The notes beneath the pieces are model-generated. The model was given only the letters and a program-made list of their open reading frames with translations. It did no database searches and had not been told where the DNA came from. From the NCBI RefSeq assembly GCF_031432975.1, contig NZ_CP133838.1:3472001-3536000 (forward strand): DNA of 64,000 nt, given 5' to 3'. Source of the stretch: Buttiauxella selenatireducens. Its GTDB lineage: Bacteria; Pseudomonadota; Gammaproteobacteria; Enterobacterales; Enterobacteriaceae. Shown piece by piece: positions 25,339 through 47,361 of the stretch (position 1 is the first letter of the stretch; the number at the start of each line of letters is the position of its first letter). Made by a program: the position numbers and the translations under genes.

Positions 25339-26181
25339 ATGACGACAGCATCCAGCCTGAATGAGCTACAGCAACAAATCCGCGACCGCTACGATAACCT
25401 GAGCAAAAGGTTGCAGCAGGTATCCCATTATGTGCTGGACAACACCAACAGCGTGGCCTTCGATACGGTTGCCGTCATCGCCGAACGTGCAGGGGTTCCT
25501 CCGTCGACGCTTATCCGCTTTGCCAACGCCTTCGACTTCACCGGTTTTAACGAAATGAAACAGTTGTTCCGTATGAATCTGGTTGAGGAGACGGCAAGTT
25601 ACAGCGACCGCGCGCGAATGTTTCGTGAAATGGAAAGCGAAGCCATACCGGAAACACCGCTGGATATCCTGCAGGAGTTCGCCCGCTCCAACGCCCAGGC
25701 GTTGCAGCAACTTGCCGCCCGCGCCGAACCGGAAATGCTTCAACGTGCGGTTGATTTGTTGGCTCAGGCCGACACGATTTACATCGTTGGGTTACGCCGC
25801 TCGTTTAGTGTCGCCACCTATTTAACCTACTCATTAAGTCATCTCGAGTGCCGACCTATTTTACTTGATGGTATGGGCGGCATGCTGTCTGAGCAGGTAA
25901 GCCGCATCAAGGCGCAGGATATTGTGGTTTCAATCAGCTTCTCACCCTATGCAGAAGAGACTTTGATGGTGAGTGAAACCGCCGCCAATGCAGGCGCCCG
26001 GCAGATTGTCATTACTGACAGCCAGATTAGCCCGCTCGCGACCTTCAGCGATTTGTGTTTTGTGGTGAAGGAAGCACAGGTGGACGCCTTCCGCTCTCAG
26101 TCCGCTACGCTGTGCCTGGTGCAGTCACTGGTCGTCGCACTGGCATATCAGTTGGGGAATGTGAATAATTCGCCGTCATAA
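25339..26181 (+). CDS. iolR: IolR, RpiR/MurR-family regulator of inositol catabolism
   Basis: A 280-residue regulator. The N-terminal HTH_6 domain spans about residues 1-80, with VAVIAERAGVPPSTLIRFANAFDFTGF as the helix-turn-helix. A SIS sugar-phosphate-binding domain covers about 120-260, with IYIVGLRRSFSVATYLTYSLSH and DIVVSISFSPYAEETL. It lies divergent from iolA in the middle of the iol locus, as in other enterobacterial iol regions where an RpiR-type IolR represses. Its last 39 bases and the following 12 bp are duplicated at 42891-42941. Confidence 0.88.
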   Translation: MTTASSLNELQQQIRDRYDNLSKRLQQVSHYVLDNTNSVAFDTVAVIAERAGVPPSTLIRFANAFDFTGFNEMKQLFRMNLVEETASYSDRARMFREMESEAIPETPLDILQEFARSNAQALQQLAARAEPEMLQRAVDLLAQADTIYIVGLRRSFSVATYLTYSLSHLECRPILLDGMGGMLSEQVSRIKAQDIVVSISFSPYAEETLMVSETAANAGARQIVITDSQISPLATFSDLCFVVKEAQVDAFRSQSATLCLVQSLVVALAYQLGNVNNSPS

Positions 26182-26193
26182 ACGATGAGGGCG
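26143..26193 (+). repeat. Left copy of a 51-bp direct repeat (iolR 3' end)
   Basis: This segment, covering the last codons and stop of iolR and the first arm of its terminator, recurs in direct orientation at 42891-42941 with two mismatches. The two copies bracket 16.7 kb of accessory DNA. Confidence 0.85.
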
Positions 26194-34296: not shown

Positions 34297-36824
34297 TTAA
34301 ACATATTTAAAGGCCAGACTCATCACCTGTTCTTCTGTAGCCCCACGGGGTAATTCCCCGGCAATGCGCCCTTTGCTAAGAACGATTATTCTGTCGGCTA
34401 CACCCAAAGCTTCCGGCAGTTCGCTGGAAACCATCAAAATGCCCATGCCCTGCTGTTTCAATTCGGCAATTAAATTGTGAATTTCAAATTTCGCGCCGAC
34501 ATCAACACCGTTGGTTGGTTCGTCGAGCAGGAGTAACCGGGGACGGGTTGCCAGCCATTTACCGATGACAATTTTTTGTTGATTACCACCGGACAAACTG
34601 GCAACAAGGTTTTCGGGATTGGATGGGCGCACACCCAATTGCGTAATGATATTTTTTGCTAATTTGGCAATGGCTTGTCTGCGCAGGATGCCGACAAAGC
34701 TGTTATGCAAAATCCAGCGTAAGGAAATGTTATCTTTCAGTGACATACTGCCAATAAAGCCCTCTTTGTGACGGTCCTCCGGCACATAAGCGACGCCTAA
34801 CTGGCTGGCGCGGCGGGCATGTCCGGACGTCATCTTCTGGGCATCAAGCGTGATAGAGCCGTGATTAAAGTGACCAAGCCCGGCGATACACCGCATCAGT
34901 TCAGTACGACCACTGCCCATCAAGCCGGTTAATGCCACCAGCTCACCATGACGAACGGTGAGGTTGATATTTTGTAGCAAGCCACCCGCAGACAGGTCTT
35001 TCACCTCAAGCAATGCCTCTCCCGGCACAGTTTCATGCCATGGGAAAACATTGCCGATATCGCGTCCAACCATCATATTGATCAGCTCAGATTCTGAGGT
35101 TTTAGGTAAAGGGGCCTCGCCCACTTTTTGCCCGTCACGCAACACCACCGCACGGCTGGCCAGGGTATAAATTTCCTGCATTTTGTGCGAGATATAGAGG
35201 ACGCAGCAGTTTCTTTTCAGCAGTCGATCAATCAGTAAATAGAGTTGATCGCGTTCAGGGTTAGTTAACGCACTGGTCGGTTCATCCATCACAATCAGCC
35301 AGGCGTCAGCCATCATTGCCTTGGCAACTTCCACCATCTGGCATTGTCCGATTGTCAGTTCTGCAACTTTCGCATCCGGATCGACATCAAGCTGTAATTC
35401 ATTAATTAATGTTCGTGCATGCTGGCGCATTTTTTTCCGGTTAAGGGCAATGCCGAAATACCGTGGAAGTTTTGTCTGCGCCAGTGCCAGATTCTCTGCC
35501 ACTGTTAATTCTGGGATCAGGCTGAAATGCTGATGAATAATCGAAATGCCTGCCCGACGGCTTTCTGCTGGCGAAGTTAATTTGATTTCGGCATCATCGA
35601 GCCATATTCCGCCTTCTTCCGGGTGATAAATCCCAGAAAGCACTTTTACTAGCGTGGATTTACCCGCACCGTTTTCCCCCATTAACGCCACCACTTCTCC
35701 ACGATTCAGGCGCAATGAAACGTTAGATAGGGCCTTCACCCCAGGGAATATTTTAGAAATACCCTTTAATTCAATGCTATTAACCGACTGGGTAATATTT
35801 TCACCTGAAGACAAACTGACGTTTTTTGGCGGAAATAACGCTTTGAGGCTCATCCCTTGCAGGAGGCCACGCTGGCTGAGCAATACGGCGACCAGCACAA
35901 ATCCCCCGGTGACGAAGTAATTGACCTGTTGGGAAACTTGCAAAAAGGAGAGCCCGGTATTCACCACGCCCAGTAACAGTGCGCCCAGCGCCGTACCTAA
36001 AATAGAACCCTGCCCGCCTGCCAGTCTCGCACCACCAATAATTGCAGCTGTAATGGCAGAAAACTCCAGGCCAAACCCTGCCAGTGGCTGTGCTGAGCCG
36101 ACTCGCCCCGTGGTGAGCAATGCGCCAATCCCGGCGCTGGCACCTGCAAATACATAAATTAGCGTACAGGTGACTCGCACCGGTATTAATGATGCATGAG
36201 CAGCCTCTGTATTTCCGCCAGTGGCGTACACCCAGCGGCCAAATATGGTGCGATTAAGCAAGAACATCCATAATGCGGCCAGTACAACAGCAATAAGCAA
36301 ACTGACTGGAATACCTGCAATATCGGTATGACCAAACCATAAATATAATGAAGAATCGACAGCTACCGACTGCGAACCGGAAAAGCTCAGCGCAACACCA
36401 CGGGCAAAAGCATAAACCGCAAGAGTCGTAACAAAAGGACTGATGCCAATGACACTAATCAGTGTGCCATTTAACAGGCCAAATCCTGCACCTATCAAAA
36501 TCACGACTATGATACCCAGCCAGCCTGGTATGCCTGTATTTTGCATAATCAGTGCTGCCAGAATTCCGCTTGCTGCCAGGACGCTTCCGACTGAAATATC
36601 AATACCTTTACAGATGATGACCGCCGTTATCGCATAGGCAACAGTCGCTATCACTGAGGTTTGCTGGCCAATATTAAGCAGATTTTCCGGGGATAAATAA
36701 TCGGGTGTAGCAATACCAAACACCGCCACGGCAATAAGGATAATGACAAATAAAACCATTTCCTGATTGAGTCTCAGCCCCTTTAACCCCGGGAGATGGG
36801 GGTACTCTCACTGTTTTGCGACAT
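34297..36824 (-). pseudogene. Permease-ATPase fusion of a ribose-type ABC importer, frameshifted near its N-terminus
   Basis: From 36759 the frame encodes 820 residues. About 1-310 is an RbsC-type permease (KGIDISVGSVLAASGIL; AIIGGARLAGGQGSILG); about 330-820 is an RbsA-type double ATPase (Walker A GENGAGKSTLVKVL, then signature LSGGNQQKIVIGKW). The likely true start is ATG 36824, with GGAG, encoding MSQNSESTPISRG before a stop. One extra G in the GGGG run (plus-strand C run 36787-36790) would join it in frame as ..SRGLKGLRLNQEMVLF... Internal initiation at 36759 has poor ribosome-site spacing. Confidence 0.75.
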
Positions 36825-36870
36825 CGTGGGAAACTCCAAAGCCCGGTTATTCACCGGGCAACAGTTTTTA

Positions 36871-37905
36871 TTACTGTTCAGCGACTGTCATGGCTGAGTC
36901 AGGCTTCGAAGGTGACATTTCTGTACGGTAATCCTTCGCTACCAATTCGGCCTTAGACGGAGTGATATAGGGGAAGCTCAGACCATTAGCTTTTAATTCA
37001 GCCGCCGTTTTATCTGATGTAACAAAATAGGTAGGCATAAACAGATCTGTTGGGTATTTCGCCCCTTTGGCGAGACGAGCAGCAACGGCAATATTCCAGT
37101 AACCCACTCGAGATGCACCGTTTAATACATCAACGACATTCGAGCCATCGCTGACATGAGGGAACATTTCAGGGTCGCCTTCATAGCTGGCAAATGAAAT
37201 AGGACGGCCATTCGCATCCGCAATCGCTTTTGCCGCAACGCAGATTGAATCGGCGAAACAACCCACGCCTTTTAAATTTGGATAGGTTGATAACCATGTT
37301 TGCATGGCATCAGAAGAACGCGTGCTGTCCCAGTTGGTTGCTTCGACTCCCACCAGTTTGATACCAGGGAACTCTTTTGACATCACATCGCGAAACGCAT
37401 TTTCGCGAGTGTCAGAGACATAGTTGCCTTTTCCGCCAACCAGTAGAGCCACCTCGCCTTTGCCATCGAGTTTCTTGGCTAATGCACGGGCGACCGTACT
37501 CATATTGGAATAGTCGGGATAAAGCGTGTTGTAATTCCAGTTACCATCGACTTTATTACCCATGGCAACCACAGGAATATTTTTTGCTTTCGCTTTTTGA
37601 ACCGCATTGGCAATAGCAGCACGATCAAGAGGATCAACTAAAATGACATCGACACCCTGGTTAACAAAGTTTTCAATATTTGAGATTTCTTTCTCAAGGC
37701 TACCTTCAGAACCCTGCCATATAACCTTAACGCCATAATCTTTTGCCGCCTCATCACCCGCCTGTCTCATCCGTACAAAAAATGAGTTTTGCAGATCAAT
37801 GGCAACCACACCGATTACCGGTACTTTTTCCGCAGCAAAGGTTGAAGCCGAAGCAACTAACGCCAACATCACAGCACTGGCAACACCTGTCTTGTTTATA
37901 AACAT
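36871..37905 (-). CDS. ABC transporter periplasmic sugar-binding protein, RbsB type
   Basis: A 344-residue periplasmic protein with signal peptide MFINKTGVASAVMLALVASA and cleavage after TFA. The type I fold shows KVPVIGVVAIDLQNSFFVRMRQAG and GVDVILVDPLDRAAIANAVQ. It is the first gene of the sugar/polyol unit, 47 bp before the fused permease-ATPase. The ligand is unknown. The long non-coding region upstream probably carries the promoter. Confidence 0.88.
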   Translation of the reverse strand: MFINKTGVASAVMLALVASASTFAAEKVPVIGVVAIDLQNSFFVRMRQAGDEAAKDYGVKVIWQGSEGSLEKEISNIENFVNQGVDVILVDPLDRAAIANAVQKAKAKNIPVVAMGNKVDGNWNYNTLYPDYSNMSTVARALAKKLDGKGEVALLVGGKGNYVSDTRENAFRDVMSKEFPGIKLVGVEATNWDSTRSSDAMQTWLSTYPNLKGVGCFADSICVAAKAIADANGRPISFASYEGDPEMFPHVSDGSNVVDVLNGASRVGYWNIAVAARLAKGAKYPTDLFMPTYFVTSDKTAAELKANGLSFPYITPSKAELVAKDYRTEMSPSKPDSAMTVAEQ

Positions 37906-38392
37906 GTTTACCCCTTGATTGAAATCCCAACGTTACTGAAATGAAGCCTCATACCTGGCTACTGGTATTAAACGGCTATAAAAAAAGCATCTCACGACTG
38001 AAAGGTACATCTCGAGTTACCAAACGGTCAATTGAGATGTTGTGAAAAAGTGATCAATACGTAATATTTTTACTGCGCAGGGGTAAACAACATCTTAAAA
38101 CAAGCTCTGTATCGCATAAATACACAGAGTTTTGGCGAGAGTTGTTTTTTAGATAGAAATGACCGAACGGTCATTAAGGGGTGGTGTTTCTTGGTGATTA
38201 CCGATATTGGGTTTGTCGGAAAGAAAGGTAAACATCCGGTGAACTCATCTTCACAGGGTTTTTAGACGAGGAAGTTTAAGGTCGAGTTTGACACATGCCC
38301 ATTTTTGCATGCTGATGCCGTTTAATCAGGGATGTCCATACTATTTAGCACCCAAACTATGACCTCAATCCCGCTGATGCCCCTTGGATTTT
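37906..38392. promoter_or_regulatory. Non-coding region between the sugar-binding-protein gene and the CHAT gene
   Basis: No gene is supported in these 487 bp. Likely control elements for the - strand transport unit are present: an inverted repeat ACATCTC..GAGATGT (38007-38013 / 38034-38040), a second, ATGACCG-AA-CGGTCAT (38159-38174), and the shared octamer AACGGTCA at 38023-38030 and 38167-38174. On the - strand, TTGACC (38027-38032) and TACCTT (38002-38007) could be a weak promoter. No clear terminator is seen after the CHAT gene. Confidence 0.45.
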
Positions 38393-41308
38393 TTATTCAT
38401 AGGACGCACTTAGCGGTTCAATGGCTGGATCACCGATGATGACATAGGGAGCCCAATAGTAGGGATGTTTCTCCCGTCCATGGCCGTTTTTCAGTGCCAT
38501 CAGCATGGTTTGCTGTAATAGCGATGCTATCGTCGACTGCTTTTTCCTGGAAGATTGCCCTATTACTTCAACTCCCATCGTTGTCGCCGCCAGATCGTTA
38601 ACTGACCACAATGAAGCAATCACCGATCGAGCTCCAGAGAAGAAAAACGCATTCGTCATTCCTGTTAAGGATTCAGCACCCGGCATTCCATCACTACCGG
38701 CTGTATTGCAGGCGTTGAGCAATACCAGATTGGCATCAATACGCATCGAGGCAATATCATTAACTGTCAGAAAAGCGGGTTTACTGTCCTGAGAAGTGGT
38801 GGACATCAGCAGCGCTGGTTCGCCAATTTCTGATAAATCTGATGCAAGATAACCATGCGTTGCAAATATAAGAATTTTATAGTTTTCAGGCTTGGCCTTA
38901 TAAAAATTAATATTGGTTGCATCCGGGCCAATGAGTATTTTCCGCTTCTCTGGTGCGAAAAATTTTTCCACTTGCTCAAGTTCCCCAACAGCGACTGCTC
39001 CGGTCAAATTTTGTATGTCTGGCTGAGGGAGCAAAGAAGCAACAAAAGCCCCACGTGTGGGAGAGCGAGGAACCAGACCGACGGGGCTGCCAATACCCAA
39101 AATATCATCAGGTGCCTTAGAAGGAGGACGGGCCCTTAACCTGGCCAGAGAGGCGGGCGAAGGTAAGTAAGCAATCTCATAGCGGCGTATCAGCCAATCG
39201 ACCTTGTCATAATCGTTAATTGCTATTGACTGCTCAAGACGACCTTCCACCAACACACTAAACGGGAACCCATCCCATACGTCATCGGCGACGAGCAGTA
39301 AGCGTTTTGCCTGCGGAAATTTACTGAGTACATTAGCAAGCGATTGCTCATACAGCCTATTGGCAATATTCAGGGAGAATTTCATGGTATCACTGGGTAA
39401 ATGAGATACCTCATACAGCAAAGTTTCTACGTCTTTTCGAAATGCCATCCGCCCTCTTTTAATAACAGCAATGTGCTGTTGCTGGTGTGTCGTAGCCAGC
39501 ACATAGCCATGTACGTTGTTGAAGGCAAATTGTAACAAGACCTCTCCGGGTAATAACTTCTTCTGGAATTCCATGAAGTTGTTGTGACTCGTTATATCAG
39601 AGGCGTTCAGAATCCCCGCCTTATTGAGTTTATTCCTGAGACGTATCACTTCGCCTTGCTGAGTCTGAAGTTGTCGAAGAAGATTAATAGCTTCGATCTG
39701 CCTGGCATCAACGTTTAACGAATTTGACTCCAGGCGTGCATACCAACTACGAGTTGTTGCTAGTTTACGCGTCGCCGTCTGGTAATCATCCAGTAATTTC
39801 CGATGTTCGAGGTTTGTTTGGTTCAAGTGCAAACTTGCCGAGGATATGGATGACGCAGTGAATTGTCTGTGCAGGCACTGAAATGCTTCAAACAGAACCT
39901 GCATGCGCTGGGGTTCTGATAGAAGCTGCGGCGACGAGTACAATAAATCGATTATTTCAAGTGCAATCTTATTTCTGTTTCCCATCAACTCTATAGCATT
40001 GCCACTGGGCAACAATGCCGCATCCTCAGCATTGGCAATAACCATCGCGAGCGCCTTACGTAACAGAGTTAAAGAAACTGTTAGCTTACCCTCTTGCCGT
40101 TCAGTTAACGCCTGTTCATAAATGATATTGGCTGTCTCGTTGCTGTCCTCTCCGGATGTAAATTGCGTGCCTTTTAGTGCTGCGTTGAGGAAGCGCTGAG
40201 CCTGAATAACATTCCCCTCGACACGATAAACGCGCCCAAGATTCATTATGGCACCAGCAATAACACTGCTGTGACTGGCGTCACCAAATAATGCCACCGC
40301 GCCAGGATTATTAAACGTCGTGGGCAATGGGTCCGGAGCATCAAAGGAATAACCAATATCTAATTTTGCTGTTCCCTTTGCCAGGGTTAAATACTTTGTG
40401 GCCTCTTCAGGCTCCCCTTTATTCATCAGATAATAGTAACCCGCTAATGCCTCGGATGAATTTATGAATCGCCCATCATATTTAGCTGATAAAATGACTA
40501 TTGCCCGAAGTAATGAGAATGCTTTGTCAGCATCTCCTGATATATTGGCAATATGCCAACGTTTTCTGACAATACTCAAATGTAATGCCAGGGTGGACTG
40601 GTCATAGTTTCTGCTGAGAAAACGTGTTAGCACTTTTTGAAATTCATCATTAATCTTTTGTAGTTGATGATTCTTTTCTTCATCATCAACACCAGCAGAA
40701 ATTAGCTGCTGAATTTTTTTTTCCAGTTTGTTCATATAAGGCTGCTCTTCCTGATTGAGGCGGGAGGCCTGCTGGTGATCTTGGGTGCTTTCTGGTATCA
40801 GAGGAATGACGTCGTTTTCAAGTGCGTCTTCGGCCTTTTGCAGGACTTTATCAGCAATCAAGAAATAACCTCTTTCCTGGTAAAGATTGGCAAGAACCAA
40901 GAGTTTACTCGCATATTTGCTGCGTTCCTTCCCGGTCAGATGTTCAGAATCAGCCACAGACCTAATTATAATAGTTTCAGCCCGGTCAAAATGACCTGAC
41001 ATCACGCTACTTAGTGAAATGCATTGAAGTGCACCATCTTTTACACTTTCTGAGTCACTTCCCTGATACAGGGCTGTGCAAATTCTATAGGCCTCCTCGC
41101 TGCGACCGGAAGCCAAGTATCGATAAACAAATAACAATATAGTTACTGACTGAAAAGATGAAAATTTATCACCCGGTTGGATTAGTTTGCCAAAGATTTT
41201 AATTTCATCTTGTTCTATGGTTGGCAAGTTCGAAGCATGGGAAGATTCGAAAATAACACCGATTGTCGCCACACAGAGTACTAGCAACCGACATAGCATT
41301 TTTATCAT
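38393..41308 (-). CDS. Exported TPR-CHAT protease
   Basis: A 971-residue protein with an N-terminal signal peptide (about MIKMLCRLLVLCVATIGVIF..SHA). Helical, TPR-like repeats follow from about residues 50 to 500, with a coiled-coil segment near 520-570. The C-terminus is a CHAT (caspase HetF-associated with TPRs) domain. The dyad is readable: His in LIFATHGYL at about residue 818 and Cys in VLLNACNTAG at about 867, followed by SGARSVIASLWSVND. CHAT proteins are caspase-like proteases; most studied ones are cytosolic, so an exported one is unusual. The start overlaps the stop of the lipoprotein hydrolase gene by 4 bp. Confidence 0.85.
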   Translation of the reverse strand: MIKMLCRLLVLCVATIGVIFESSHASNLPTIEQDEIKIFGKLIQPGDKFSSFQSVTILLFVYRYLASGRSEEAYRICTALYQGSDSESVKDGALQCISLSSVMSGHFDRAETIIIRSVADSEHLTGKERSKYASKLLVLANLYQERGYFLIADKVLQKAEDALENDVIPLIPESTQDHQQASRLNQEEQPYMNKLEKKIQQLISAGVDDEEKNHQLQKINDEFQKVLTRFLSRNYDQSTLALHLSIVRKRWHIANISGDADKAFSLLRAIVILSAKYDGRFINSSEALAGYYYLMNKGEPEEATKYLTLAKGTAKLDIGYSFDAPDPLPTTFNNPGAVALFGDASHSSVIAGAIMNLGRVYRVEGNVIQAQRFLNAALKGTQFTSGEDSNETANIIYEQALTERQEGKLTVSLTLLRKALAMVIANAEDAALLPSGNAIELMGNRNKIALEIIDLLYSSPQLLSEPQRMQVLFEAFQCLHRQFTASSISSASLHLNQTNLEHRKLLDDYQTATRKLATTRSWYARLESNSLNVDARQIEAINLLRQLQTQQGEVIRLRNKLNKAGILNASDITSHNNFMEFQKKLLPGEVLLQFAFNNVHGYVLATTHQQQHIAVIKRGRMAFRKDVETLLYEVSHLPSDTMKFSLNIANRLYEQSLANVLSKFPQAKRLLLVADDVWDGFPFSVLVEGRLEQSIAINDYDKVDWLIRRYEIAYLPSPASLARLRARPPSKAPDDILGIGSPVGLVPRSPTRGAFVASLLPQPDIQNLTGAVAVGELEQVEKFFAPEKRKILIGPDATNINFYKAKPENYKILIFATHGYLASDLSEIGEPALLMSTTSQDSKPAFLTVNDIASMRIDANLVLLNACNTAGSDGMPGAESLTGMTNAFFFSGARSVIASLWSVNDLAATTMGVEVIGQSSRKKQSTIASLLQQTMLMALKNGHGREKHPYYWAPYVIIGDPAIEPLSASYE

Positions 41309-42621
41309 GGTTTATGCTCAAAAATCAGTATATCTGTTGCGGAGTCACCTTTTGAAGAGAGTATGGTCTCACCTGAGGTTGATGGTTTTTTCTGGGATAC
41401 ATAAGCTCCTCGAGTTTTTGTAGCTATGGCGTTATCAAGAGTTACTCTGGCCGTAATACCTGCAGCATGGTGTTCTTTTTCGAGCTGTTGATCTGCATTT
41501 TTCAGAACAAAAAAGTACAAGCGTTCAATGCCCGTATTGTTATCCAGTGTCATGAATTTTTGGGGATCGCCGGGAACACGAAGAGACGTTACGGGTTCAT
41601 TTTGTAAACCAGCAATATCACCGTTGGGGAAATATCTTTCCCGATAACCTGTACTGTCAATATTAAAAATATAAAACCATGCTGGTTTACGAGTATGAAT
41701 TTCAATCGCATATTGATCTCCACTATGCACATAGTCTCCCGCCTTTATTAATGATCCATCGGGTTTAACCAGTTTGATTACCACTCGCTGAGGTATTTTG
41801 TCATCAGTGGAAAGGCTATCCAAAATGCGAGCACGTAAATATTTGTGTATTTCATCATCGGCAGACAAAGGCTTGACAATCGTAGAGTGATTGCGAGCAA
41901 ACGCCACTGGCGTTTCATCACACCCCCGTTCAGAACCAGAGCGAGGAACAACAATCATTGGCCATAAAGCTTCTGTTTCGTAGGCGCAATAGCTTCTTGG
42001 GAAGGGGGCATCGACGGTTCGGGCACGGAGCAAACTATTCCAGTCATTATCCAAAACCTGAAGGAAGGGATTGAAATCTGACGGTTTCATATTTTCAAAT
42101 TGTGGATTGTTGCTAATCCATTTTGCCATTACTGCTAAATCTGCGCCCTGGGCAGGGGTCGAGAAAAAAATCACACTTTTCACTTTATGAAAACTTTCGG
42201 GAGTGTTCACCTGCAACATGCGAAGCATTCTCTTGGCAATTAATCCCCCCATGCTATGCACCACAAACACAACATTGTCGTATCGCTTAAAGACCTTTTC
42301 ATCTTCAATGGATCGCAACATACTTACCGCAATTTCTTCAATGTTGGACGTTCTTGCTAATGGCCCCGATTTGTAACCTACTGCATATACGTCTACTGGC
42401 TGTAACTGTTTGTCGTTAAATACAATATCTGGCCATTCAGGTTTTCCCGTACCTGTAGCCCAAGTCTCATGTGAATCACCGAGAACTCCATGAATAAAAA
42501 TAATAACTGTCTTAGATCTATCACCAGGCTGTTTAAGCCAATATGAATCAGAATTAGCATCAGTACCATGGCAGCTAAGCAGTGAGAGCGCTATCATCAC
42601 GATTATTATAAGGGGCTTCAT
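41305..42621 (-). CDS. Lipoprotein alpha/beta hydrolase with DUF4384-like C-terminal domain
   Basis: A 438-residue protein. The start giving MKPLIIIVMIALSLLSCHG has GGAG upstream and a lipobox (LLSC, lipid-modified Cys at about 17); the longer reading to 42681 is not used. The hydrolase domain has the oxyanion segment IFIHGVLGDSHETW and the nucleophile motif VVHSMGG (Ser at about 123), resembling PGAP1/lipase-type serine esterases. The last 130 residues (KAGDYVHSGDQYAIEIHT..WFYIFNIDSTG) resemble DUF4384, a domain often joined to caspase-like peptidases. It is cotranscribed with the CHAT gene. Confidence 0.78.
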   Translation of the reverse strand: MKPLIIIVMIALSLLSCHGTDANSDSYWLKQPGDRSKTVIIFIHGVLGDSHETWATGTGKPEWPDIVFNDKQLQPVDVYAVGYKSGPLARTSNIEEIAVSMLRSIEDEKVFKRYDNVVFVVHSMGGLIAKRMLRMLQVNTPESFHKVKSVIFFSTPAQGADLAVMAKWISNNPQFENMKPSDFNPFLQVLDNDWNSLLRARTVDAPFPRSYCAYETEALWPMIVVPRSGSERGCDETPVAFARNHSTIVKPLSADDEIHKYLRARILDSLSTDDKIPQRVVIKLVKPDGSLIKAGDYVHSGDQYAIEIHTRKPAWFYIFNIDSTGYRERYFPNGDIAGLQNEPVTSLRVPGDPQKFMTLDNNTGIERLYFFVLKNADQQLEKEHHAAGITARVTLDNAIATKTRGAYVSQKKPSTSGETILSSKGDSATDILIFEHKP

Positions 42622-42764
42622 GAAAATAACTCCAAGTATGTTTATTGGAACATAGTTTAATACTTTGGAAAATTCACTCATATAAACTGATGAATTGGAG
42701 ATAATAATTCGTTGGTATTAAAACTTTTTAATTTTATAGCAAAGCAAGTTATGCACAGCACTTT

Positions 42765-42890
42765 GGTTTGTTGAATAAATCAGATTTTGAACCAGCATCC
42801 CTGCATTAAAACTAGCGTACTGCCTGACCCGGTACATCACTGTTTATGCTATTGAGCGGCAGTTATCGTCTGCTGTCCATTGCAGAACGT
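42765..42890. mobile_element. IS903-like terminal remnant
   Basis: GGTTTGTTGAATAAATC (42765-42781) matches the 18-bp IS903 end as I remember it (GGCTTTGTTGAATAAATC) except for one missing base. The stretch that follows, up to the 51-bp repeat, has no open frame of transposase size. It may be the relic of an insertion that rearranged this junction. Identification rests on the end only. Confidence 0.4.
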
Positions 42891-42941
42891 GCATATCAGT
42901 TGGGGAATGTGAATAATTCGTCGTCATAAATGATGAGGGCG
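42891..42941 (+). repeat. Right copy of the 51-bp direct repeat (iolR 3' end)
   Basis: 49 of 51 bases match 26143-26193. The two differences are C-to-T changes, one in the iolR tail and one just past its stop. The copy ends inside the terminator stem, and the sequence to its left is unrelated to iolR. It lies between the IS-like remnant and the peroxidase gene. Confidence 0.85.
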
Positions 42942-42990
42942 AAAAAGCGAGCATTCTGCCAGGTATTCAACGCGTTGAAAATTTGACCCA

Positions 42991-43093
42991 GGCGCCAGCA
43001 TAAACATTTAACACAACTAAAAGAACAGCATTATAAAGGTGGATTTCGTGCCCTTTAATAAATCCTTTAGTTCGGTTGGCGTATGCTGGCGCC
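42991..43093. repeat. 12-bp inverted repeat downstream of the peroxidase gene
   Basis: GGCGCCAGCATA (42991-43002) and TATGCTGGCGCC (43082-43093) are exact inverse copies with a 79-bp AT-rich loop. They may be a terminator-like structure or the ends of a small mobile remnant. The remaining DNA between the hydrolase start and the peroxidase stop holds no supported gene. Confidence 0.5.
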
Positions 43094-43107
43094 ACAACGT
43101 CTTCTCC

Positions 43108-46100
43108 TTATCCGATTAGAATAAAATCATGAATATCGATGCTTTTAGAGTTTACGTTTTCTAAAGTAATGACATTGTCATTAGCAGGATTGCCGATGTT
43201 AATGACGGTACTATTACCGGCTCCCCCAGCAATCGTGACGCTGCTGGCAAAATTCGCCACACCAATGCCTAATAAACTCAGATCGAGGTAGTCCTGTCCG
43301 CCGCTGGGATTACTATCGAAACCGTTGGTAATACGGTCTCGCCCAAAGCCTTCGCTAAAGACGAAGGTGTCATTTCCGGCACCACCTGACATGATATCAG
43401 CGCCCTGGCCACCATCGAGTCTGTCGTCACCCGCTCCGCCTGTCATGTTATCGTTGCCGGCCCCGCCCTGAAGGTTATCGGCACCGATACCACCATCAAG
43501 GGAGTCATTTCCTGCCCCACCCTTGAGCGTGTCGTTTCCTCCCAGACCATACAAAAAGTCATTACCGCTGCCACCGTTGATGGTGTTGGCAATGGCATTC
43601 CCTCTGCCGGTGAAAGAGCCTGTCCCGGTGAATACCAGTGTTTCAACGTTATTGGTCAACGTGTAATTAGTGAGGGTGGTCTGGACAAAATCCGTCCCGC
43701 CATCAAGAGCCTCCTTGACAACATCCATAACATTATCAACAAGATAAACATCATCTCCGGCACCACCTGTCATGCTATCGGCACCCTGGCCACCCTCGAG
43801 TCTATCGTTACCCGCTCCGCCTATCATGTTATCGTTGCCGGCCCCGCCCTGAAGGTTATCGGCACCGTCACCACCATCAAGGGTGTCATTTCCTGCCCCA
43901 CCGTTCAGTTGGTCGTTTCCTCCCATTCCATACAAAAAGTCATTACCGCTGCCACCGCTGATGGTGTTGGCAATGGCATTCCCTCTGCCGGTGAAATTGC
44001 CTGTCCCGGTGAACACCAGTGTTTCAACGTTATCGGTCAAGGTGTAATTGTTGAGGGTGGTCTGGACGACATCCGTCCCGCCATTAAGACCTTCCGTGAC
44101 AACATCACCCTTATTGTCAACGATATAGGTGTCATTACCGAGACCGCCCGCCATCTCATCCGCGCCAGAGCCGCCGTTGAGGGTATCGCTGCCGGCCCCA
44201 CCGTTGAGCGTGTCGTTTCCGCCTCCACCATTGAGGACGTCGTCGCCGAGCCCACCATTGAGGACGTCAATGCCATTTCCACCATTGAGGACGAGGTTGA
44301 GGTAGGCAACGACCGGCGGATTATCGAGCTGACTCGTCCCGAAGATGTTCTCTGGAAGATTGATCAGGCCCGTGTTGCGTGCCACGATCCCGGCAAAGCC
44401 CTGCTCCTCAATGGCCTCGTAGAGGTCCAGATGCTCCACGCGGTCGAGATAATACAGCCGGTCACCTTCCTGGATCCGGTCAAGTTGCTCGTGGATGATG
44501 ACCCAGAAGGTCTGGCCAACCACACCGCCATTGATGTGCTTCTCGGCGAGTCCGCCAACGAACAGATCCACTCTGTCGATGCCTTTGACGGTGTTTCCGT
44601 TGACCAATTGATAGCCAGGATTAGCCGCCAGGAAGTTTGCAATTTGAGCATCCTCCAGCACGAGGTCTGGATAGGCCTGTTTGAACTGCGCAATGACGGT
44701 GTCGCTGAGATTGTTCCGTGTCTGGAAGTCCTCCCACGAACTGTATGGTGTGAGATCGCCGGCAAAGCTGACCGCCTCCCTCACATACGGATCGAGAGAG
44801 GCCATCAGGTCGGCCCGGATCTGGTTCATCGAACCCAGACCGACGTCCCACTCGCGGGCGACGTCAAAGGCGAACACGTCAGCACTGATACGAATGAGGT
44901 CATTTCGGACAGCATCGACGATATTGACGTCAACTTCTTCCGCAGGCTGGACAACACCACCGGCAATGATCCCGGCGACACCTATTTGCTCATAGCCAGG
45001 CTGTGGAGAGTAAGGCAATTGCGCTTTGGGGAAGTTGAACGCGCTCGTATCGTTGGTCGGGTTGAGGAACGCGTCGAACAGCGGCACCTGTGTTGGATTG
45101 CCCTGAGCGTCGAGCACCGTCAGCGTCTGCCCTATCAGCGAATGACCGAACCGGTAAGCTGCCGTCGCGAACTCGTGTGAGACGCGTGCATCCACTTCGG
45201 GATTGTACCCGGCGAAGCCGTGATCGCCCTCGCCTCTCATGCCACCAAGCAACTTGTCGGCAAAGTCGGTGTAAATAACGCGCTGATATTCAGCCTCGTT
45301 GATGATCTTGGCAGCCTGGAAAAGCTCTTCAGCAGTTCCATTAAATCCGGCGTCGAGCAATCCGTTGACATGGAAGTTGTGATTCCGCGCCCAGATGTTG
45401 TGGACCGCAGTGAGTGCGATGTTCTCGTTCGCCCGTCCATCACCCGCCACGTAGTGGTCGAGCAGGTTGATAAAGGGGTTGGTGTCGAGCAGCAGCGCAA
45501 AGCCACTTCCCATGAAATTAGACGTCATGGCAGGGAGCATCGCCTGGTTGATAACGCCATTGCTGTCGACCAGTCCGGCGAAGTACTCCTGGAAGGTCAC
45601 ACTGTGGTCGCCCGGCAGTGAGCTGTCGGTGAACCGCGTGTTGTTGTTCCAGTGATTCAGGATCAGTTCCCTCAGCGTGGGCAGCAGCTTGAAATTCGGA
45701 TTCGATGGATCCAATCCGCCCTCCAACAGCTTGCCCGTAAACCCGCCATGTCCGTCACCTTCGCGCAGGAACAAGCCGACGAGTTCGTTCGAGCCATAAG
45801 TTTGGTTCTGGTCAGCGAATGGCGATGTCTTATTGAGATGCTGCGGGATGCCATTGGCATCAATGCTGTCAACGGTGCCGCGAGTCAGGTCCGCGGGATT
45901 TGGAACCGTGCCCGGAGCGCCAATCTGGATCGTTCCGTTACCTCCCTTACCGAGGAAATCGAGACCGTGATCGAAGTACTGACCGAAGGCCGTGAACAAG
46001 CTGTTCACGCCGGCGGCGTTGCCAGAAAGGTTTGCTTCCTGTGCGCCAAGGACATTGCTGATGGCTCGCGGATCCAGCCCGGAGAACAGGGGGTTGATGT

Positions 46101-46716
46101 CGCGGTTGTGAGTCGTCTCATTGTAAGCGCCGTAGTGCGCGTCGGAGAGTCGTATGAACGGCTGATCGGCCGAACCATAGTCAAGGTGAACACGGTTATT
46201 GCCGGTGCCTTCGAGATCGCGGATCCCGAGCGCATCGTTGTCTTCACCTCCTTCAAGCCCGTTGACGAGATTCTTCAGGTTGGCGACATCACTGGCGTTG
46301 AGCGGGAAGGCCCCGTCGCCGCCGACATCGTCATTGTCGTCGTCATCGTCGTCGCCATCCTTCGACGTTTCCTTGCTCGCTAAGAGTATGGGATCGGTAC
46401 CTTTGTTCACTTCAACTGTGGACAAGATATTGGCGGTCTGGTTACTGATAATCCATGACGGCGGATCTATAACCGACCATATCCCATCGTATCCCGCTTG
46501 AAACGTGGAATCATAAAAGCGCAGGAAGGAATGGTCTGTAGCCCCAAACTTGCCTTGCCCTGTGACCAGGTTGTTAAAGCTACCCTCGAAGGTGCGCATC
46601 CCGAATGGCAGCAGATGGTTGGATAATATATTGACGTTGACGTCGTCGACATCCGTTTGTGTTAAAGAGACTTGCTTGAGGATATATTTCAGGTCAGACT
46701 TTTTGGCATCGGTCAT
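43108..46716 (-). CDS. Secreted animal-type haem peroxidase with RTX calcium-binding repeats
   Basis: A 1202-residue protein starting MTDAKKSDLKYIL (ATG with GAGAG upstream; TTG 46731 and ATG 46722 are alternatives). An acidic stretch near residue 125 is followed by an animal haem peroxidase domain of about 620 residues: distal-His motif FGQYFDHGLDF (His about 250), DGRANENIALTAVHNIWARNHN, and proximal His in AAYRFGHSLIGQ (about 525). The last 400 residues hold about 22 nonapeptides of the GGxGxDxLx type, then a C-terminal tail suited to type I secretion. It has no signal peptide. No type I exporter is encoded in the window. Relatives include rhizosphere Pseudomonas peroxidases. Confidence 0.85.
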   Translation of the reverse strand: MTDAKKSDLKYILKQVSLTQTDVDDVNVNILSNHLLPFGMRTFEGSFNNLVTGQGKFGATDHSFLRFYDSTFQAGYDGIWSVIDPPSWIISNQTANILSTVEVNKGTDPILLASKETSKDGDDDDDDNDDVGGDGAFPLNASDVANLKNLVNGLEGGEDNDALGIRDLEGTGNNRVHLDYGSADQPFIRLSDAHYGAYNETTHNRDINPLFSGLDPRAISNVLGAQEANLSGNAAGVNSLFTAFGQYFDHGLDFLGKGGNGTIQIGAPGTVPNPADLTRGTVDSIDANGIPQHLNKTSPFADQNQTYGSNELVGLFLREGDGHGGFTGKLLEGGLDPSNPNFKLLPTLRELILNHWNNNTRFTDSSLPGDHSVTFQEYFAGLVDSNGVINQAMLPAMTSNFMGSGFALLLDTNPFINLLDHYVAGDGRANENIALTAVHNIWARNHNFHVNGLLDAGFNGTAEELFQAAKIINEAEYQRVIYTDFADKLLGGMRGEGDHGFAGYNPEVDARVSHEFATAAYRFGHSLIGQTLTVLDAQGNPTQVPLFDAFLNPTNDTSAFNFPKAQLPYSPQPGYEQIGVAGIIAGGVVQPAEEVDVNIVDAVRNDLIRISADVFAFDVAREWDVGLGSMNQIRADLMASLDPYVREAVSFAGDLTPYSSWEDFQTRNNLSDTVIAQFKQAYPDLVLEDAQIANFLAANPGYQLVNGNTVKGIDRVDLFVGGLAEKHINGGVVGQTFWVIIHEQLDRIQEGDRLYYLDRVEHLDLYEAIEEQGFAGIVARNTGLINLPENIFGTSQLDNPPVVAYLNLVLNGGNGIDVLNGGLGDDVLNGGGGNDTLNGGAGSDTLNGGSGADEMAGGLGNDTYIVDNKGDVVTEGLNGGTDVVQTTLNNYTLTDNVETLVFTGTGNFTGRGNAIANTISGGSGNDFLYGMGGNDQLNGGAGNDTLDGGDGADNLQGGAGNDNMIGGAGNDRLEGGQGADSMTGGAGDDVYLVDNVMDVVKEALDGGTDFVQTTLTNYTLTNNVETLVFTGTGSFTGRGNAIANTINGGSGNDFLYGLGGNDTLKGGAGNDSLDGGIGADNLQGGAGNDNMTGGAGDDRLDGGQGADIMSGGAGNDTFVFSEGFGRDRITNGFDSNPSGGQDYLDLSLLGIGVANFASSVTIAGGAGNSTVINIGNPANDNVITLENVNSKSIDIHDFILIG
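43369..44130. repeat. Tandem 381-bp duplication inside the peroxidase gene
   Basis: Two consecutive units of 127 codons (43750-44130 and 43369-43749) encode near-identical blocks starting YIVDN or YLVDN, continuing VETLVFTGTG and FTGRGNAIANTI, and ending in eight RTX nonapeptides. Long DNA stretches are almost identical, so the duplication is recent or kept alike by recombination. Confidence 0.8.
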
Positions 46717-47361
46717 TTTCATTTCTCTCAATAATGATTATGAAAAGGCACGAAAAGCCGAAGCCGGTACGCGGCACTCGAATTACGCGCCTGGAATTGT
46801 TAAATGAGCGAATAGACAGAGCAGCTCAGCCCCCACAGGACAATCGCGACGACTGACTTTGCCAAAGTGATAGCAGGCGCAGACAAGCGATGCCCTTACA
46901 TTTAATAAAGCCAATAAGTTAACAACCGTCAATTATTTATAATTACCCTCAACAACCTTTAATTTTTCAAACGAATATTGAACCAATCATAAAGACAATT
47001 AATTATTAATAAAGCCATGCTAAAATCAATAATATTAAAGTTTATAAAACAAATCTGAAAATAATACTTTACTAGTACCGCTTCGTTGACATATCTAAAC
47101 TAACTTATATTTACTTGTCATCAACATCATAATCGAGGTCATTATGTGTGATGTGACCTGCCCGCAGATATTAATGATTTTCCTGGCGTGAACAATATCG
47201 CTGAACCCGTGCTCATTCAGGCATTCATCGCCATGCTTCGTAGTGAGTAGCTAAAGACAGTGACTATGCTCAAACTATAGAGCCTATGACAGTTATTGCT
47301 TCCGGCAGGGACACAAAGGGTTAGGAGGCGTCAATTTATGGTAAAAACACCAGAAACGAAA
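46717..47361. promoter_or_regulatory. AT-rich non-coding region upstream of the peroxidase
   Basis: No gene is supported. The part from about 46910 to 47130 is strongly AT-rich with many A/T tracts, the kind of DNA silenced by H-NS, and probably contains the peroxidase promoter. Around 47150-47250 one frame reads DLPADINDFPGVNNIAEPVLIQAFIAML on the + strand without a start; it may be a remnant, unidentified. Confidence 0.4.

Follow-up and report, generated by a model that had tools for sequence, protein, structure and literature searches.

The 64,000-nucleotide stretch analysed here (the window: Buttiauxella selenatireducens, contig NZ_CP133838.1, positions 3,472,001 to 3,536,000) carries on its minus strand a unit of two overlapping genes, the first encoding a predicted exported lipoprotein with an alpha/beta hydrolase domain and the second a predicted exported TPR-CHAT protein. 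The pair is real, varies in presence between strains, and is recurrent but rare. Our preferred interpretation, which we put forward tentatively, is that it forms a protease-gated envelope (phospho)lipase effector carried as a mobile, strain-variable module. Systems that place a protease beside an effector hydrolase are already known; what is new here is the envelope setting, the exported hydrolase of the LmuA type and the exchangeable CHAT partner. Among the titles and abstract openings listed in our searches of an open-licence literature collection, there was no publication on an exported CHAT-hydrolase pair.

The hydrolase open reading frame (ORF) runs from 42621 to 41305 and is followed by the ORF of the CHAT protein from 41308 to 38393. 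The two share the letters ATGA, which serve as the stop of gene 1 and the start of gene 2, and the two-gene unit with a 4-bp overlap proposed from the sequence by an earlier reader (the original prediction) was thereby confirmed. The start of gene 1 at 42621 has a GGAG about 12 bases upstream, and a longer in-frame ATG lies at 42681. The unit and the segment that holds it are as follows.

41305..42621, minus strand: gene 1, predicted exported lipoprotein alpha/beta hydrolase with a DUF4384 tail, 438 amino acids (alternative in-frame start at 42681)
38393..41308, minus strand: gene 2, predicted exported TPR-CHAT protein, 971 amino acids (ORF and domain matches)
41305..41308, minus strand: ATGA shared by the end of gene 1 and the beginning of gene 2 (sequence)
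38274..42894, no strand assigned: segment of about 4.6 kb absent from a conspecific genome, holding both genes and no other (genome comparison)

The conspecific genome matches the window at 35080-38273 (97.7%) and 42895-46399 (97.2%), with 17 bp between the two matches. The two-gene segment is therefore strain-variable. Neither gene was matched at E 1e-3 in any of 59 other genomes of relatives (60 searched, own genome included). With a G+C fraction of 0.41-0.47, the pair falls in the lowest part of the range spanned by the flanking 1-kb windows (0.41-0.55) and below the neighbouring peroxidase gene (0.50-0.57), which is neither a strong nor a decisive sign of foreign origin. No common 9-mer, direct or inverted, was found between the stretches tried at the insertion borders. 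A 51-bp intergenic repeat, REP-like by eye and an imperfect palindrome, occurs at 42891-42941 and at 26143-26193 (96% identical), and its first copy contacts the right insertion border.

The same gene order was found in two Paraburkholderia genomes. In P. dilworthii (locus L049), a hydrolase with a signal peptide is followed after 73 bp by the gene for an exported TPR-CHAT protein of about 1,511 amino acids, and in P. panacisoli (L050) an exported TPR-CHAT gene coding for about 1,511 residues lies 15 bp after the hydrolase, or 75 bp if the start matching that of L049 is taken. Both hydrolases are 41-42% identical to the window protein over nearly its full length, and by the signal rule the Paraburkholderia homologs carry no lipobox. 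A hydrolase tree (26 rows, some with long branches) groups the window protein with L049, L050 and L023 (support 100/98) and then with L051 from a Nitrospirota metagenome-assembled genome (MAG; 95/91). In agreement with this tree, a topology constrained to pair the window hydrolase with that from Nitrospirota was rejected (p 0.022).

The CHAT partners behave differently. Those of Paraburkholderia are only 25-27% identical to the window CHAT protein, and that of P. dilworthii has an RHS/DUF6531-like N-terminal part. A tree uniting the window and Paraburkholderia CHAT proteins was rejected by the approximately unbiased test (log-likelihood 58.9 lower, p 0.000228) on 33 rows, two long-branch CHAT rows having been removed from 35 after the 35-row tree had been inspected. 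Different CHAT subfamilies under one hydrolase clade imply either partner exchange or two separate pairings, and the fixed partnership of the original prediction did not survive this test, since the hydrolase has more than one kind of CHAT partner.

As the original prediction had asked, we looked for recurrence and for fusions: adjacency does recur, rarely, in these two genomes, and none of the loci examined showed a fusion of hydrolase and CHAT protein. Of the CHAT ORFs in the fetched loci, 16 had 900 bp or more of sequence available upstream, and three of these had a hydrolase there; 22 hydrolases had 1 kb or more available downstream, and three of these had a CHAT gene there. The three loci are identical in both counts. 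These loci were fetched with the same queries, so that the fractions are not population rates. Next to the pair of P. dilworthii, the other strand carries at 14431-17316 of L049 a gene that matches the PADLOC candidate defence model PDC-M36A (6e-10) and, by eye, an ATPase-like gene.

These observations bear on whether the two genes are coupled at all. They could be cargo genes that landed together by chance and were kept separately, and the rarity of the pair, the CHAT partners that are not sisters under one hydrolase clade and the existence of unpaired exported hydrolases (L051, L078) would all fit such a history. We consider it unlikely in view of the 4-bp overlap, the gene order repeated in Paraburkholderia with a different CHAT protein, the low dN/dS (nonsynonymous over synonymous substitution rate) of the pair's two genes between P. 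dilworthii and P. panacisoli (0.189 and 0.192), and an insertion that contains no other gene.

Rarity was evident at several depths of search. A scan of approximately 85,000 species genomes with two peptide patterns, a method that reaches close relatives only, gave five confirmed hydrolase loci (L049-L053): besides the Paraburkholderia pairs, these were the Nitrospirota MAG (42% identity over residues 34-269), a Bradyrhizobium MAG (L052, 29%) and L053, a short match (residues 12-54) within a different hydrolase. P. caribensis (L023) carries a truncated, apparently degenerate copy. A hydrolase profile matched 5 of the 299 genomes sampled from the Paraburkholderia family (E 1e-10, P. dilworthii included), 12 of 398 sampled from the phylum of the window at 1e-15 (own genome included) and 4 of 374 from another class at 1e-25 (one source of the profile included). 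Used as single queries, the hydrolase matched 11 of 369 genomes of the class at 1e-3 and the CHAT protein 40 of 369, the own genome being counted in both. The CHAT protein also found matches in 137 of 72,556 plasmid records, none over more than 80% of its length. The hydrolase queries gave no confirmed match in viral contigs and none in phage records; a single scan of the viral contigs for CHAT brought up three distant relatives. Three viral-listed contigs (L096, L097 and L098) have TPR-CHAT genes and, by eye, a terminase-like gene in each.

Both N-termini are of the export type, as had been predicted from the sequence for both partners. That of gene 1, MKPLIIIVMIALSLLSC, has the lipobox LLSC at residues 14-17; that of gene 2, MIKMLCRLLVLCVATIGVIFESSHA, has a signal-peptidase-I-like end. 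The lipobox and signal-peptidase consensus rules were used for both. The residue at +2 of the candidate lipidated cysteine is His, which fits outer-membrane sorting of the predicted lipoprotein by the +2 rule. The features of gene 1 are listed below.

42571..42621, minus strand: signal peptide of the lipoprotein type; lipobox LLSC, with Cys17 as the candidate for lipidation and His at +2 (sequence, simple signal rule)
41812..42519, minus strand: alpha/beta hydrolase domain, homologous to hydrolase-type LmuA (Pfam, profile match, structure model, fold comparison)
42253..42255, minus strand: Ser123, predicted catalytic nucleophile within VHSMGG (conserved in 26 of 26 rows)
41977..41979, minus strand: Glu215, predicted catalytic acid (profile-aligned with an Asp of LmuA)
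41887..41889, minus strand: His245, predicted catalytic His (conserved in 25 of 25 scorable rows)
41986..41988, minus strand: Cys212, first Cys of a pair specific to exported members (6 of 6 exported, 0 of 19 others)
41920..41922, minus strand: Cys234, second Cys of the pair (column comparison, 25 scorable rows)
41506..41727, minus strand: DUF4384 domain, C-terminal tail of gene 1 (Pfam and genome scan)

A lipase-like enzyme beside a repeat-rich exported protein, present in some strains and not in others, recalls the lipase effectors of type VI secretion with their periplasmic immunity proteins of the TPR/Sel1 type. As a rule such effectors have no lipoprotein signal. The hydrolase has one of its own, the protease dyad of its partner is intact and no secretion-system gene occurs among 12 scanned neighbours; on the first two grounds we rejected this candidate, and an interbacterial weapon and immunity pair of this kind seems to us highly improbable.

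The hydrolase domain was recognized by several Pfam alpha/beta hydrolase families, the best at 3.3e-5, with scores slightly below the cut-offs except for DUF676. The hydrolase motif and its nucleophile serine, described at first as GHSMGG-type, are there, although the letters read VHSMGG. Ser123, Glu215 and His245 form the predicted catalytic triad; the acid is missing at the Glu215 column from some rows of the 26-row alignment. Fold comparison of the model covers mainly residues 19-273. A phospholipase fold of the PlaB type aligned with 15% identity, and generic esterases scored nearly as high.

The nearest characterized relatives of this domain are hydrolase-type LmuA proteins, effectors of the antiphage system Lamassu (ABC-three-component, PADLOC PDLC03851). 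Two hydrolases recovered in our searches (L081 and L092) sit in three-gene loci with a small protein and an SMC-like ATPase, and PADLOC identified those of L081 as LmuA (3.5e-90), LmuC (4e-42) and LmuB (3.6e-211) and, in L092, the hydrolase as LmuA (1.9e-84) and the ATPase as LmuB (6.7e-204). Between the window hydrolase and the L081 protein a match extends over 249 residues (2e-20), and hhalign of its profile against an LmuA-type profile gave 99.7% probability (3.3e-27), confined to the hydrolase domain. Direct PADLOC LmuA scores were weak (5.3e-6 for the window hydrolase and 1.6e-8 for that of P. dilworthii). Alpha/beta hydrolases are one of the effector types given for LmuA in the literature (PMC10586767). 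The domain, the serine, the histidine and the profile-matched acid are shared with LmuA. Unlike LmuA, the window hydrolase is predicted to be exported and has a cysteine pair, a DUF4384 tail in place of the Lamassu C-terminal part, and a CHAT partner. Membership in Lamassu was ruled out by the export signal, by the homology confined to the hydrolase domain and by the missing LmuB and LmuC, neither of which occurs among the 12 Pfam-scanned neighbours. The homology to LmuA and the strain-variable presence nonetheless lean towards conflict or defence, and a defence role for the pair is plausible.

Six hydrolases have signal-like N-termini before the domain, namely those of the window, L049, L050, L051, L052 and L067, while most matches (19 of 25 scored rows, N-termini read by eye) have no signal there. 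Cysteine stands at both the Cys212 and the Cys234 column in all six exported hydrolases and in none of the 19 other scorable rows. The exported labels were assigned by reading the N-termini; a crude signal rule flagged 14 of 30, some genes being counted twice. Six of the 19 others (L037, L043, L063, L068, L069 and L076) had been flagged by it, and in these the stretch picked up is the hydrophobic first strand of the domain. The fragment L023 is not scorable at the Cys and His columns, and L114-L116 were read by eye outside the scored rows. The six are partly related, with L052 and L067 unplaced in the tree, so they do not represent six independent events. The two cysteines, which lie between the nucleophile region and the histidine, are best read as a putative disulfide, and a cysteine pair in exported members fits an oxidising compartment such as the periplasm.

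The DUF4384 match in gene 1 (3.5e-5) scored 24.2 bits in the Pfam search and 28.1 bits in a direct genome scan against a cut-off of 27, and the P. dilworthii homolog has a match at the corresponding place (1.6e-4). The domain is carried by cyanobacterial orthocaspases (PMC7475262). Its assignment to caspase-like networks, made in the original prediction, was not borne out: the own genome encodes a second DUF4384 protein in which no caspase match was found, similar proteins occur in other genomes (L042, L046 and L048), and the family has matches in 7 of 14 control genomes. The second protein (L112, 5671-7254, outside the window) is of the lipoprotein type, has a peptidoglycan-binding domain and adjoins a Sel1-repeat gene. 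In view of this second protein, DUF4384 was rejected as a caspase marker. In L042 and L046 the DUF4384 protein has an OmpA-family gene beside it, as does a DUF4384-like protein in L047. Since the domain does not mark caspase networks alone, a tail that docks to the envelope is as likely as a signalling tail.

For the product of gene 2, the following features were recorded.

41234..41308, minus strand: predicted signal peptide, cleavage after Ala25 by eye (sequence and signal rule)
40043..40252, minus strand: best TPR_12 match, within the helical N-terminal part (Pfam)
38429..39367, minus strand: CHAT protease domain (Pfam and model comparison)
38855..38857, minus strand: His818 of the dyad (sequence, alignment)
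38708..38710, minus strand: Cys867 of the dyad (sequence, alignment)

The CHAT family PF12770 was matched at residues 648-960 over model positions 3-289 of 289 (E 9.6e-45, 153.7 bits against a cut-off of 24) and TPR_12 at residues 353-422 (3.5e-10). His818 and Cys867, which the original prediction had placed approximately, proved exact, and no loss was seen among homologs, the dyad being invariant in 14 of 14 rows of the CHAT alignment (A5). By profile and dyad, gene 2 is assigned to the CHAT family, with predicted protease activity. Its CHAT model resembles Csx29 and separase; a single-sequence search with the C-terminal 401 residues gave no solved relative (best E 0.68). The own genome (5.2 Mb, one contig) has one CHAT match, and the family has matches in 1 of 14 control genomes. 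PADLOC models gave no match to the window CHAT protein and a weak match to BovA (2.8e-4) for that of P. dilworthii. In Niveispirillum (L025, 4576-10194), a lipoprotein-type CHAT protein is preceded by a long repeat-rich protein and followed, by eye, by FecR-like and CHASE2/cyclase-like genes.

Csx29 of Craspase and separase share with the gene 2 product the TPR-then-CHAT order, the fold and the His-Cys dyad. The window protein differs from Craspase in its signal peptide and its hydrolase partner; the Csx29 NCBIfam model scored 16.4 bits against a cut-off of 300, and membership in Craspase was ruled out, no Cas7-11/gRAMP or Csx30-type gene being present among the 12 scanned neighbours. Two other relatives are tied to membrane biology, HetF, a TPR-CHAT protein with a predicted membrane segment, and DdvA, an anti-sigma factor known here from a structure title alone, which aligns with the TPR-CHAT model. 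In a rival reading the pair serves envelope surveillance or housekeeping: as HetF does in cell division, or as DdvA does, the CHAT protein would act in the periplasm as a sensor, a scaffold or a protease under regulation, and the hydrolase would trim envelope lipids or other esters and kill nothing. We find this doubtful, as presence and clean absence between strains of one species fit it poorly and the relatives of the hydrolase are conflict effectors.

The protease-gated effector that we prefer would work as follows. The gene 1 product would be an outer-membrane-type lipoprotein whose hydrolase domain, stabilised by a Cys212-Cys234 bond, comes from common stock with the Lamassu hydrolase effectors, the Lamassu docking part having been swapped for the DUF4384 tail. 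The gene 2 product would be a periplasmic protease like separase and Csx29, with a TPR part that would detect a partner or some event in the envelope, upon which CHAT would be activated. CHAT might then cut a bound inhibitor or the hydrolase itself, for example where the domain joins the DUF4384 tail, and the freed hydrolase could attack envelope lipid or another ester and harm the cell or an attacker.

Gating is proposed because of the analogy with Craspase and canu. The TPR-CHAT protein of Craspase is kept inactive until its partner complex binds target RNA (PMC9729208) and then cuts Csx30 (PMC11106740), and the caspase of canu activates the adjoining nuclease (PMC12799240). Both canu and the trypsin-gated nuclease pairs resemble the window pair in their adjacent genes for a protease (of the caspase family in canu) and an effector hydrolase, and their partner proteases vary by lineage and their loci are mobile, as here (PMC12799240). 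An adjacent caspase-family protease and effector enzyme are likewise present in the L049 and L050 pairs. The effectors there are experimentally tested metallo-beta-lactamase (MBL) nucleases (PMC12799240), whereas the effector candidate of the window is an alpha/beta hydrolase instead of an MBL-fold nuclease and both of its proteins are predicted to be extracytoplasmic.

The flow could also run in reverse, with the hydrolase sensing or processing a lipid or peptide signal of the envelope and CHAT proteolysis, as the effector activity, destroying envelope proteins. The direction is not readable from gene order alone, and the known CHAT protease does target a protein, Csx30; yet the cousins of the hydrolase are Lamassu effector parts and it is the caspase that activates its partner enzyme in canu, and we regard this reversal as quite improbable.

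A broader evolutionary form of the protease-gated reading, which we offer with more doubt, is that one branch of the hydrolase effectors of cytosolic antiphage systems relocated to the envelope, where it acquired a disulfide and the DUF4384 tail and came to be gated by interchangeable exported CHAT proteases of the separase-like kind, giving an extracytoplasmic, protease-triggered immunity or self-killing. Action would then perhaps take place at the membrane, where damage by phage, toxin or contact begins, a corollary that we hold to be equally speculative. To our knowledge, the bacterial immune effectors so far described as activated by proteases act inside the cell, either in the cytoplasm or from the cytoplasmic side of the inner membrane. 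If the proposal is true, the bacterial envelope would be a further site of caspase-like death or alarm signalling, and a definite class of candidate substrates would be at hand for exported TPR-CHAT proteins of proteobacteria. The small, strain-variable two-gene form and the natural empty-site strain make the system easily tractable.

The genes adjoining the hydrolase are the CHAT gene and an RTX peroxidase gene, and the 12 Pfam-scanned neighbours comprise sugar ABC, redox and core genes. The peroxidase gene (43108-46731), which encodes an animal-haem peroxidase with RTX repeats, lies directly upstream of the pair. It was considered as linked cargo and rejected, because it is present without the pair in the conspecific genome and missing from the ORFs listed for the loci in Paraburkholderia. 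At E 1e-50 it was matched in 9 of 36 genomes, the own genome included and all of one genus; among the listed matches other than the gene itself, only the C-terminal repeat part (residues 820 on) was covered, so that the peroxidase part looks restricted. At 36871-37905, a sugar ABC binding protein was found at E 1e-30 in 2 of 12 congeneric genomes (the own and the conspecific one), which indicates that the neighbourhood is variable beyond the pair.

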